Of a stretch of DNA of 64,000 nucleotides, positions 42,154 to 56,459 are shown one piece after another (the first letter of the stretch is position 1; each line of letters begins with the position of its first letter). A program made the position numbers and the translations under genes. Origin of the DNA: an uncultured Victivallales bacterium. Lineage in GTDB: Bacteria; Verrucomicrobiota; Lentisphaeria; Victivallales; UBA1829. Below the pieces are notes generated by a model. That model was not told the origin of the DNA and ran no database searches. It saw only the letters and a list, made by a program, of their open reading frames with translations. The DNA lies in assembly GCA_944390735.1 (NCBI GenBank), contig CALXRL010000039.1, positions 1 to 64,000 on the forward strand, in the 5' to 3' direction.

Positions 42154-43182
42154 ATGACTCAATCGGTAAAATGGATCGACTTCAGAACCATCGGGCTGGA
42201 AGGTCAGGCCTGGCAGGATCAAACGTTCGAATCAAACTACGACCGAATCCCCGCGGCCGCAAAACAATCCATCCCCGACCTCGTCTGGAGAAATTCCCTT
42301 TCTCCAACGGGCATGAGCATCTCTTTCATCACGGATTCTCCAACCATTTTCATCCGAAGAAAATTCGAATCCACTCAGATGGAAGAACGAAATTTCAATA
42401 ACTGCTCCTTCAGCGGCTTCGACCTCTACGCCGAACACAATGGGTCCCTCCGATGGGTCTGCACAACAAACCACAAATACGGCAATTCCGATGAGTATCC
42501 GCTCAACATGGACCCCATCCATGGACGATACACCTATCGACTCTATCTGCCATGCAGAAACAGACTTCTGAAAGCCGAACTCGGAATCGAAAACGGCGCT
42601 TTCTTCCAGCCCGTCCCCCCCAGACCCGAAAAAGACGCCATCGTCTATTACGGATCTTCCATCATCCACGGGGCCTACTCCTCTCACGCAGGACTCTGCA
42701 CTCCCGCATGGCTCGGAAGAAAACTGAACCGTCCGACTTATAATCTCGGTTTCTCCGGCGCGGCAAGAATGGAACTCGAAGTCGCCGATCTGCTCGGAAC
42801 CCTCAACCCCGCAGTCTTCGTCCTCGACCCCATGCCGAACATGGGCTTGAACGAAATCAAACTCCGCGCAAAAGATTTCCTGAAACAACTGCGAAAACTC
42901 AAACCCAAAACCCCGTTCCTCCTCGTCGAAGACGCCCCCAAAACAAACGGCTGGATCTTCCACGAAAAACTCGATGACAACCGGAAACGCTGGCACACCA
43001 TGCGGAAAATCTGCAAGGAACTCTACAACGAAGGAGAAAATAATATCTATTATCTGAAAGGGAATTTCCTCTTCGGCTCCGACGGAGAAGCCAGCGTCGA
43101 CAGCGTTCATCCCGGCGATCTCGGCTACCTGCGTATGACCGAACGCCTCTATCCCGTCCTGAAAAAAATCCTCGAACATTAA
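42154..43182 (+). CDS. SGNH hydrolase with N-terminal jelly-roll domain
   Basis: 342 residues, ACGGAGGA 6 bases before ATG 42154. Residues about 1-155 form a beta-rich SGNH_hydro_N-like domain; residues 160-342 are an SGNH hydrolase: block I IVYYGSSIIHGAYSS (catalytic Ser169), NLGFSGAARMELEVADLL, and block V DSVHPGDLGYLRM with Asp and His. The block III region reads LDPMPNMGLN. Last gene of the lacZ operon. A cytoplasmic deacylase acting on glycans is likely. No signal peptide. Confidence 0.85.
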   Translation: MTQSVKWIDFRTIGLEGQAWQDQTFESNYDRIPAAAKQSIPDLVWRNSLSPTGMSISFITDSPTIFIRRKFESTQMEERNFNNCSFSGFDLYAEHNGSLRWVCTTNHKYGNSDEYPLNMDPIHGRYTYRLYLPCRNRLLKAELGIENGAFFQPVPPRPEKDAIVYYGSSIIHGAYSSHAGLCTPAWLGRKLNRPTYNLGFSGAARMELEVADLLGTLNPAVFVLDPMPNMGLNEIKLRAKDFLKQLRKLKPKTPFLLVEDAPKTNGWIFHEKLDDNRKRWHTMRKICKELYNEGENNIYYLKGNFLFGSDGEASVDSVHPGDLGYLRMTERLYPVLKKILEH

Positions 43183-43301
43183 CAATCTGTAAAATCATTG
43201 AACCGCCATCCTCTATCCTGTTCTTCTTCAGCAGGATAGAGGATGATTCCGCTCAAATCAGTCGAAAACCTGCTTAGCGCCTTTCTCCTGCTTTGCTTCC
43301 T

Positions 43302-43390
43302 GTTTCGGGTTCCTGCTTCGGGGGCTTTTTCGTTGGTGGCTGCTCGCCCCCAACACCCCTCGGCAGGACCATCGGCCCTGCACCCATCGC
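43302..43390 (+). repeat. Left arm of an 89-bp inverted repeat
   Basis: Matches the reverse complement of 43654-43742 at 86 of 89 positions. Includes GGGGGCTTTTTCGTTGGTGG and CCCCTCGGCAGGACC. Lies in an 858-base stretch without genes (43183-44040). Confidence 0.93.
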
Positions 43391-43655
43391 CGAAATTTGA
43401 AATTTCGGCTTCCCGTTTTTTCCGGCACTTGCCGGGCAAAGGGCAAACCGAATGGTTCGCCCTCTGCACTCCCTGCTCCTTTTTCCCCGATGCCATCATT
43501 TTTCGCCGACAAGGATAAAGGAAAACTCTGGCTGGCTATTTTCCTGCAACGTGGATACGCCGAAAAGGATGAGGGGGTCCAGGGGGAAAACCTTCGCTTG
43601 GCCCCCTGGTCGACAGGTGTCGAAACACTCACAGGAGCAAAAATTCAATTTTTGC
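43389..43655. other. Strongly structured spacer between the inverted repeat arms
   Basis: Holds a chain of hairpins: 43389-43409 (GCCGAAATT/AATTTCGGC, 9 bp), 43422-43435 (CCGGCA/TGCCGG), 43441-43462 (GGGC-AACC stem, GAAT loop), 43579-43609 (CCAGGGGG/CCCCCTGG), 43611-43622 (CGACA/TGTCG) and 43637-43655 (GCAAAAATT/AATTTTTGC). The first and last sit at the equivalent inner ends of the two arms. No coding gene is supported. Confidence 0.75.
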
Positions 43656-43742
43656 GACGGGTGCAGGGCCTATGGTCCTGCCGAGGGGTGTTGGGGGCGA
43701 GCAGCCACCAACGAAAAAGCCCCCGAAGCAGAAACCCGAAAC
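43654..43742 (-). repeat. Right arm of the 89-bp inverted repeat
   Basis: Reverse-complement partner of 43302-43390 with three mismatches. The sequence beyond it (to about 44040) holds no recognisable gene or promoter. Confidence 0.93.
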
Positions 43743-44040
43743 GAGAAACCACCGACAAAAAAAACACGAAATGGAGTTCAGCAGGTTGATTCCGAGTTCG
43801 CATCAGCGCCAGACGCCGGAGGATTCGATTCCGCGTTTCACATCCGGAATCCCGGCGCAGTCGCAGGGATCGCGGAGTTCGTCGATGAGACAGGTCCTGG
43901 AGCATCTTACGCATTCAAGACAGCGTTGATTCTATTTCAGTTTTCTTATGTTGAATTCCGTTTATTGCTGAAAAGGGAGAGCGAAAAAAATTTCCGTGCC
44001 TTCGCTGTTTGAATTCTTTGTCTGCTCCGCATGGAGGAGC

Positions 44041-45150
44041 CTATCGCCGGGCGATGCGGAAAATATAGATGGCCCCGAAGATCTGGTAAAGCGCCGGAGG
44101 AATCCAGACGATATACTGCGGGAACATCCATGGAGTGGATTTCAGGGAGTCGGACACCAGGACCGATCCGAAATAGAGTCCGGCGAGCAGCACGCTCATG
44201 AAGAGACCGATGGAGGTTTCCCGTCGGGAGGTCCGGATAGCCATGGGCAGTCCGAGCAGCAGAAAAGCCATCGGAGCCAGCGCCAGAGCCACTCGCTGAT
44301 TGAGTTCCGTTTCGATCTCGCAGATCCGCTCGGTGGAGTTGCGCTTTCGTTCAATGATGGAGCGGGCGTAGAGTCCCTCATATCCCAGATGCTTGTCGCG
44401 AAGGGCAATGCGTTTCCGGTTGAACTCCTTTCCGTATTCCAGGGTGAATTTCATCTCTTTTCCGAAGGTTCTTCTGGGATGTTCGTCGTTGTTGTTCTCA
44501 TAAGCGATGATTGTGGCGTTTTCCAGAATGATATCCATTTTCTGAGCGACCTTGTCGACGACGATTTTTCCGGAAGAAGCGGTCACATCCTGTTCGATCC
44601 GTTTGGCGTCCTTGCTGAGATTGTAGACCTGGATGCCTTTGATTTCCCCGGTTTCGGGGTTTTTCTGATCGATGTACATGCTGAGGTTGTCGAATTCGAT
44701 CGGGATTCCGGGTTCGAAGAGGGCAAGGGGATGATCCACCGCCACGCTCTTCACCACGACCTGCGCCTTGCCGAGATAGCGCGGCCCCACATCCAGCTGG
44801 AGATAGAGACAAAGACAGGTCAGAGCAAACGTCAGCATGATGATCGGCGCCACGATCTGCAGGATGGAGACGCCGCATGCGCGCATGGCCGTGATTTCGT
44901 TATCCGCGGAAAGTCTTCCGAACACCAGCATGATGGAGACCAGAGCGGCCCAGGGAATTGTAAACGCGAGGGCAATCGGCAGCACATACATCATGAACAG
45001 CATGGCCGTGGAGATGTTCACTCCGTTGGAGATGTATTCAAAGACCTTCACGAGCCGCGCGCCGGTCATGCCGAATGTCAGAACGCCCATCGCCATGAGG
45101 AAGGTGAAAAGGAAGTTTTTGGCTACATAAAAATTCAAAGTTTTGAGCAT
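44041..45150 (-). CDS. LptF/LptG-family LPS export permease
   Basis: 369 residues. N-terminal transmembrane helices (KNFLFTFLMAMGVLTFGMTGARL, VLPIALAFTIPWAALVSIMLVFG with the conserved RLSADNEITAMRACG cytoplasmic loop), a periplasmic beta domain (about 120-265), and three C-terminal helices (VALALAPMAFLLLGLPMAI and on). This is the YjgP/YjgQ layout. It would pair with LptB to extract LPS. Only one such permease is in the window; the partner must lie elsewhere or the protein works as a homodimer. Confidence 0.9.
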   Translation of the reverse strand: MLKTLNFYVAKNFLFTFLMAMGVLTFGMTGARLVKVFEYISNGVNISTAMLFMMYVLPIALAFTIPWAALVSIMLVFGRLSADNEITAMRACGVSILQIVAPIIMLTFALTCLCLYLQLDVGPRYLGKAQVVVKSVAVDHPLALFEPGIPIEFDNLSMYIDQKNPETGEIKGIQVYNLSKDAKRIEQDVTASSGKIVVDKVAQKMDIILENATIIAYENNNDEHPRRTFGKEMKFTLEYGKEFNRKRIALRDKHLGYEGLYARSIIERKRNSTERICEIETELNQRVALALAPMAFLLLGLPMAIRTSRRETSIGLFMSVLLAGLYFGSVLVSDSLKSTPWMFPQYIVWIPPALYQIFGAIYIFRIARR

Positions 45151-55220: not shown

Positions 55221-56459
55221 ATGCGACTGTTTGAATCCGGCGACCGAATTGTGTTTCTCAGCACCCCCTTTTTCCGGGAGGACACTTTTGCGCGCTTGCT
55301 CCGGAATTTTTATTTTACCCGCTTTCCCGGGATCCGCCTGGAGACCTTCCAGAGCGTTCTTCCGCCCGGGAACGCGGAGCTAATGCAGACTCTGCTGAAG
55401 AAGGAGGTCATTGCCGGGGAGGTGACCGGAGCGGTTCTTCATTTCGATATTCGCGATTTTGCGCCGGATCCACACATGCTCTTTGCCCCCGGAGAGGCCG
55501 GACACGCTCAGCGGATCCAGGCGATGACACGCTATCACGATACGGTGGAAGACGCGGTGAAACGTCTGGCGGAGGCGGGAATTCCGGCACTGCTCCTCTC
55601 TCCGCTTCCGCCGGGGCGGAGCCGCCTCCGGTCCGGCGGACAAGCGGAGGGGGATGCGGACGATCTCGCCGACCGCTGTGTCGAAATCAGCGCCCGTCTT
55701 GCGGAATGCCACGGCATGGAATTTCTCGACGTTCTTGCGCCGATGCGGAAGCTCGCTGCCGCAATGCGCGAAAACACGGATGAGAGGCGGAAAGACGATC
55801 TGCGGAAAACGCCACCCGCTCCGGATGACGCCCCTCCGGATTTGCCGTCATACGCGGTCATGACCAGTCTGTTTCTGGAGGCGCAGAAGGCGCCGCGGCG
55901 GATCTTCAGCGCGGAACTCGGATTCTCCTGCGTGGAGGAGAACTGTTCCGTATCGGAAATCCGGATGGAGGAGTCCGGTCCCTCGTTTCATCTGACACTG
56001 TTTGCCCTGCCCTATCCGCCGTTCGAGGAGCGGGCGAAGGCGGACAGACGAATCGCCTTCTCCGAAAAATGGAACCATATGCGTCTTGCCGTCCGCGGGA
56101 TTTCCCGGGGCGTTTACACTCTGTTCGTGAACGGGGCCTGTTTTCAGGAGTTTTCCTCCGAAGAGCTGGAACAGGGGATCCGGCTGGATCTGAAATCGCC
56201 GCGCTCGGAAAGAATCGGGGAGCTGAACCGGATGTATGAAGATCTTCAAATTCAACTCCGCGGGCTTTCCCCGTGGAACCTCCGCGCAGCGGAAAAGGAG
56301 AGCCCGGACAAAACAGCCGCACGGGAGGAGTCCGGTTTTCAAACCGGGAATGGGGAGGAGGAGCTCCGGACGCGCCTCCGCATTCTCTCCGAAGAACTCC
56401 GGATCCCGTTCCGTCCGGACACCTGCAAACTGGAACTCAAACGAATCGGATGTCCATGA
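55221..56459 (+). CDS. SGNH-hydrolase-fold protein lacking the catalytic residues
   Basis: 412 residues from ATG 55221, with AGGAAAGG close upstream. The beginning, LFESGDRIVFLSTPFFRED, aligns with the common SGNH opening GDRIVFLGDSIT, but GDS is replaced by STP (residues 14-16). The middle (PALLLSPLPPG, ECHGMEFLDVLAPMR) and PSYAVMTSLFLEAQ keep the fold pattern, while the block V Asp-x-x-His is lost (APPDLPSY). It therefore looks like a pseudo-enzyme. The C-terminal half carries a beta domain and a charged Arg/Glu-rich tail with no recognisable family. The gene is intact, with no stops. Confidence 0.7.
   Translation: MRLFESGDRIVFLSTPFFREDTFARLLRNFYFTRFPGIRLETFQSVLPPGNAELMQTLLKKEVIAGEVTGAVLHFDIRDFAPDPHMLFAPGEAGHAQRIQAMTRYHDTVEDAVKRLAEAGIPALLLSPLPPGRSRLRSGGQAEGDADDLADRCVEISARLAECHGMEFLDVLAPMRKLAAAMRENTDERRKDDLRKTPPAPDDAPPDLPSYAVMTSLFLEAQKAPRRIFSAELGFSCVEENCSVSEIRMEESGPSFHLTLFALPYPPFEERAKADRRIAFSEKWNHMRLAVRGISRGVYTLFVNGACFQEFSSEELEQGIRLDLKSPRSERIGELNRMYEDLQIQLRGLSPWNLRAAEKESPDKTAAREESGFQTGNGEEELRTRLRILSEELRIPFRPDTCKLELKRIGCP

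Follow-up and report, generated by a model that had tools for sequence, protein, structure and literature searches.

Inverted heterodimers of hairpin arrays in the intergenic DNA of a Victivallales genus, and their likeness to REP repeats

Palindromic repeats of the REP type have been described as dimers, including heterodimers (PMC3733652), and as REPINs (PMC3116915). For REP heterodimers a protection from removal has been suggested, and the same work describes CGTC repeats that have no dedicated transposase (PMC3733652). In insertion sequences the segment between the terminal inverted repeats can itself invert, as reported for ISWpi1 at 2 of 22 IS loci (PMC3004938). Template switching between inverted repeats has likewise been reported (PMC8604942), and template-switch mutagenesis at quasipalindromes is known (PMC7202029, PMC8604942). 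On the motifs treated below, or on such repeats in Victivallales or Verrucomicrobia, we found nothing specific in the literature.

The element described here was found in a stretch of 64,000 nucleotides (the window) from an uncultured gut bacterium of the Victivallales, the assembly of which amounts to 4.29 Mb in 100 contigs and is 92% complete. Its origin in a Victivallales genome also follows from the neighbouring gene serC, among whose relatives in public genomes is one at 91% identity from a Victivallales metagenome genome. We read it, with a probability of roughly 0.6, as belonging to a non-coding, non-autonomous, REPIN-like family of palindromic repeats that is old and vertically inherited, and whose arms have been made alike by recombination or template switching. 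For the question of how REP-like repeats spread and are kept up without a RAYT, this family offers a tractable case: each genome has few copies, four species have them at orthologous sites, flips and collapses can be seen, and in deep relatives the stems change and the linkers are constant.

Anatomy of the element and its gene setting

The element lies between a gene for a GDSL-type esterase (42154-43182, plus strand) and a gene for an LptF/LptG permease that converges with it (44041-45150, minus strand). No gene was called from 43183 to 44040, in agreement with the first-pass annotation, which had described an 858-bp gene-free stretch here, but the origin of the stretch is not purely non-coding, since immediately next to the element it contains the remains of a threonine synthase gene (thrC; 43761-43931, minus strand; tblastn E = 7e-13), marked by an internal stop and a deletion. 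At the same position genome G002 (L151) carries an intact thrC of 429 aa. The further remark that the region did not look like decayed coding sequence was therefore mistaken at the right end of the stretch. For the element itself a coding origin was rejected, neither of the two ORFs over its left part (one per strand) having a Pfam match. A known RNA identity was rejected as well: Rfam gave a tRNA alone in the window, no family scored above the gathering threshold for the element, and matches elsewhere were weak and below threshold. Over a related hairpin array at L220 (1402-1554, minus strand) the Pseudomonas sRNA P33 (RF02404) reached 30.6 bits, the cut-off being 45.

Of the 89 positions in each arm (43302-43390 and 43654-43742), 86 match, exactly as first reported, and the inverted repeat can be lengthened without gaps to 101 nt at 93% (43297-43397 / 43647-43747). 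At the inner ends sit the hairpins that we call H3, GCCGAAATTTGAAATTTCGGC on the left (43389-43409) and GCAAAAATTGAATTTTTGC on the right (43637-43655, minus strand); between them two base pairs are altered on both sides, which bears out the compensating changes first noted there. Additional hairpins had also been mentioned, and we counted five per half. A single strand of the element folds into a long stem topped with local hairpins, the fold of 43290-43755 having an energy of -172 kcal/mol against -80.5 +/- 5.5 for shuffled sequences (z = -16.6), with none of 100 shuffles as good.

Given the 101-nt inverted repeat and the dispersed copies, the whole element with its extended arms (43297-43747, no strand assigned) is described as an inverted heterodimer of hairpin arrays. 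Its core, GTTGG...CCAAC (43332-43712, likewise unstranded), is common to all four species of the genus, the arm symmetry of the copies in G001-G003 mostly ceasing outside GTTGG. Half A occupies 43332-43483 on the plus strand (covariance model match of 173 bits) and is made up of H1 (43332-43354), H2 (43363-43381), H3 (given above), H4 (43422-43435) and H5 (43436-43467). Half B is inverted, occupying 43563-43712 on the minus strand (159 bits), and its hairpins are H1 at 43690-43712, H2 at 43663-43681, H3 as given, H4 at 43610-43623 and H5 at 43579-43609. The halves are separated by a central, unstranded spacer (43484-43562), which is variable in length and sequence in the alignment of complete copies. 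Outside the core the left outer arm (43297-43331, plus strand) carries a species-specific extension, TTTCGGGTTCCTGCTTCGGGGGCTTTTTC, that is found in most copies of this genome and is missing or different in sister species; the right outer arm (43713-43747, minus strand) is its mirror.

H1 and H2 are identical in the two halves, and H3 to H5 occur as two types, A and B, of the same layout and different sequence. In the alignment of complete copies, every one consists of one A and one B in inverted orientation, with H1 outermost and the variable spacer in the centre.

Copies, shared sites and likeness of the arms

The first-pass annotation had called for a search for further copies, and these are present both in the same genome and in the other three species of the genus. 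Here 7 complete copies and 18 at contig ends make up a total of about 16-25, and the covariance model finds 40 half-element matches in this genome and 24, 13 and 5 in the three other species; in relatives outside the genus plain DNA comparison found essentially no copies. The copies measure 330-450 bp, are intergenic, dispersed and non-coding, and differ widely in number within the genus. The element accounts for many contig breaks in these metagenome assemblies.

Several candidates were set aside. A covariance model match at 56208-56379 was weak (15 bits) and was taken as chance. Apparent copies on G025:C163 (L091, L163; another genus) and on G002:C194 (L092, L153) share 99.8-100% identity in their flanks with sites of this genome, and were treated as lying on what are probably contaminant contigs instead of being true copies of those genomes. 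A plasmid or phage origin was rejected, there being no match to the element in phages and plasmids and none to the linker pattern (see below) in viral contigs. At L169 (G000:C26:24268) and L168 (G002:C36) we saw small palindromes standing alone, tipped by the H1 sequence and lacking inner arrays; these are possibly collapsed copies or independent small repeats.

Comparison of flanks showed that many sites are common to different species, and many have been inherited vertically. Among 14 shared sites, the half that faces a given gene is the same at 9 and swapped at 5, as read from short-read metagenome assemblies in which repeats may be misjoined, a proviso that also applies to the likeness of arms reported below. 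The swap between L004 and L096 was confirmed by both flanks, and that between L023 and L091 separates near-identical genomes. Some sister-species sites have no element, or only a small hairpin or remnant. At L093 (G003:C131) one flank is that of the L012 site and the other that of the L007 site, which suggests that two copies were rearranged with each other, or that the contig is misassembled.

Within the genome each array type is about 96% identical between copies, compared with about 90% between species. Because copies within the genome are only this much alike, very recent insertions are not among them. Within a single copy the two arms resemble each other more than arms taken from different copies do, with 29 of 5040 permutations as good. 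We infer that the family persists at present mainly through exchange between the two arms, by recombination or polymerase template switching; such exchange would keep the arms alike, flip the interior (compare PMC3004938 and PMC8604942), and sometimes collapse a copy to a small hairpin. The difference between A and B may at the same time keep the palindrome imperfect, and hence safe from hairpin nucleases such as SbcCD, in line with the suggestion made for heterodimers of REPs (PMC3733652).

It could be proposed instead that nothing ever transposed, and that template switching or recombination among existing intergenic palindromes, that is, mutational palindrome growth together with gene conversion, produced all that is seen. 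The homogenised arms are consistent with this proposal, and so are the outer arms: this genome's copies have extra symmetric ones, several with a second, more worn rung further out, giving a repeated, ladder-like arrangement, and in sister-species copies the symmetry mostly stops at GTTGG. The central G/C swaps found in the H3 loop also speak for it, and template-switch mutagenesis of quasipalindromes is established (PMC7202029, PMC8604942). On the other hand, the defined A and B make-up of all complete copies and the conserved linkers found across the phylum would be hard to obtain by undirected mutation, and dispersal to unrelated loci requires a copying step. We consider palindrome growth on its own to be very unlikely.

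Stem covariation and constant linkers

A covariation test on aligned copies, which had been put forward as a check, came out positive, the stems covarying both in the genus and beyond it. When 45 halves from the genus are aligned, pairing holds in 94.3% of cells, and changes on both sides are seen at nine pairs, which belong to H3, H4 and H5. Most of these nine are differences between A and B, and hence single events; one H3 pair is altered within type A, between species. H1 and H2 are invariant within the genus, and so hold no covariation information there.

A covariance model of the half found relatives in genus g3 (G005, G013, G025; E about 1e-9) and in genus g9 (G018, 2e-6); most other members of the family gave no match to it. 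In the 28 matches outside the genus, the alignment of which was fitted to the covariance model, changes on both sides were seen at 7 of 7 pairs in H1, 4 of 7 in H2 and 9 of 9 in H3. H2 covaries also when 15 hand-cut H1-H2 pieces are aligned by sequence only, 89.9% being paired as against 37-47% when the alignment is slid. Genus g3 (L200-L206, L210-L218) has two more types of hairpin array, with H2 of the form GCAGGTGT...ACACCTGC or GCAGGACT...AGTCCTGC; some of its loci are inverted pairs of both types and some are tandem.

While the stems change on both sides, the linkers ACCCC(T)CGG and ACCC, which are unpaired, remain constant. Outside the genus, a search pattern in which only the linkers and five base pairs were fixed matched six places, distributed over four genomes of the phylum, the reversed control giving 0 matches. 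At these places, sparse across the phylum and reaching into other families, the unconstrained interiors were again complementary.

Such strong changes on both sides, with linkers and loops conserved, raise the question of a selected structured RNA, in which the arrays would share transcripts with the genes beside them and influence mRNA stability, termination or regulation, selection on folding giving the covariation. The retention of sites across species and the exceptional fold energy are consistent with such a role. The same covariation pattern, however, can arise whether it is selected in RNA or emerges at the DNA level, structured RNA and structured DNA being indistinguishable here, and template switching also yields paired changes. 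Judged by flanking starts and stops, the neighbouring genes are convergent at three of the seven complete copies, tandem at three and divergent at one; the copies are not confined to the downstream side of genes. In a crude count of ORFs, gene 3' ends were not in excess on the sides facing copies (14 to 14), and a role as terminator was rejected for this reason. Given also that copy number varies so widely in the genus, that orientation flips without loss, and that no Rfam family reaches threshold, we regard a selected RNA as unlikely.

The search for a mover and the comparison with known repeats

The first-pass annotation had suggested a REPIN-type or small mobile element, and we did find short palindromic units arranged as inverted dimers, non-coding, intergenic, dispersed and in many copies, as in REPs and REPINs. 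The remaining marks of such an element were not seen. PF01797 (Y1/RAYT) is absent from the window's genome (92% complete) and from G002, and the locus that was read among Y1 matches elsewhere, in G001, is an ordinary-looking IS200 without these repeats; a strict RAYT-driven REPIN was rejected on these grounds. The alignments were inspected for a GTAG or CGTC tag at the hairpin foot and none was seen, and neither a cognate transposase nor an insertion polymorphic within a species was found. No target-site duplication is visible beside copies with asymmetric flanks, the only empty sites being cross-species ones with diverged flanks, nor did any same-species genome show a clean empty site. An attempt to place the exact insertion point from the cross-species empty sites was abandoned, as their flanks are too diverged.

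Long terminal inverted repeats, the want of coding capacity (no ORF with a known domain), a length of 330-450 bp and dispersed intergenic copies would also fit a classical MITE, moved through its terminal inverted repeats by a DDE-type transposase. The lack of a visible target-site duplication where flanks are asymmetric argues against this, as do ends that differ between species past GTTGG. A search of the genome with the arms returned only hairpin-array copies and small palindromes, and so no full-length parent with the same ends; with 18 copies ending at contig breaks, a longer parent on missing contigs could have escaped it. Taken together, we find a classical MITE quite improbable.

We therefore return to the REPIN-like repeat family. 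A copying step is needed because the element has reached many loci, and, if REPINs are a guide, this would most likely be the work of an enzyme that acts on folded single strands. In the past such an enzyme would have spread the copies, working in trans on the fold, with the hairpins and the ACCC-type linkers as its recognition features. Against this reading it must be said that no candidate enzyme was found, no target duplication, and no very recent insertion.

What we claim as new is modest: the family adds one more form to the dispersed palindromic repeats already known, and arrays defined by their linkers stand a fair chance of being a class in their own right. It is possible, and we offer it tentatively, that a phylum-wide class of palindromic repeats exists apart from the GTAG and CGTC REPs, defined by its linkers (hairpin-ACCCC[T]CGG-hairpin-ACCC-hairpin), with complementary stems that change freely, arranged as inverted heterodimers, and spread by a putative non-RAYT enzyme.

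Among known systems, MITEs resemble the element in being non-autonomous, dispersed, a few hundred bp long and bounded by terminal inverted repeats, but the element has internal hairpin arrays with covarying stems, and no target duplication, parent transposon or transposase was found for it. ISWpi1 (PMC3004938) shares with it the flipping of the interior between terminal inverted repeats at fixed loci; the element has no transposase gene, and flips were seen at 5 of 14 shared sites compared with 2 of 22 loci in ISWpi1. Compared with REPs and REPINs the element is large (about 380-450 bp) and has five hairpins in each half where these have one, with the linkers ACCCC(T)CGG and ACCC in place of a GTAG or CGTC tag, with a low copy number (tens), and with no RAYT in this genome. 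It is like REP dimers and REPINs (PMC3733652, PMC3116915) in being built from short non-coding palindromes between genes, with conservation in the unpaired residues and variation in the stems, in forming inverted dimers that are often heterodimers, in leaving solo remnants, and in being dispersed without coding for its own movement.
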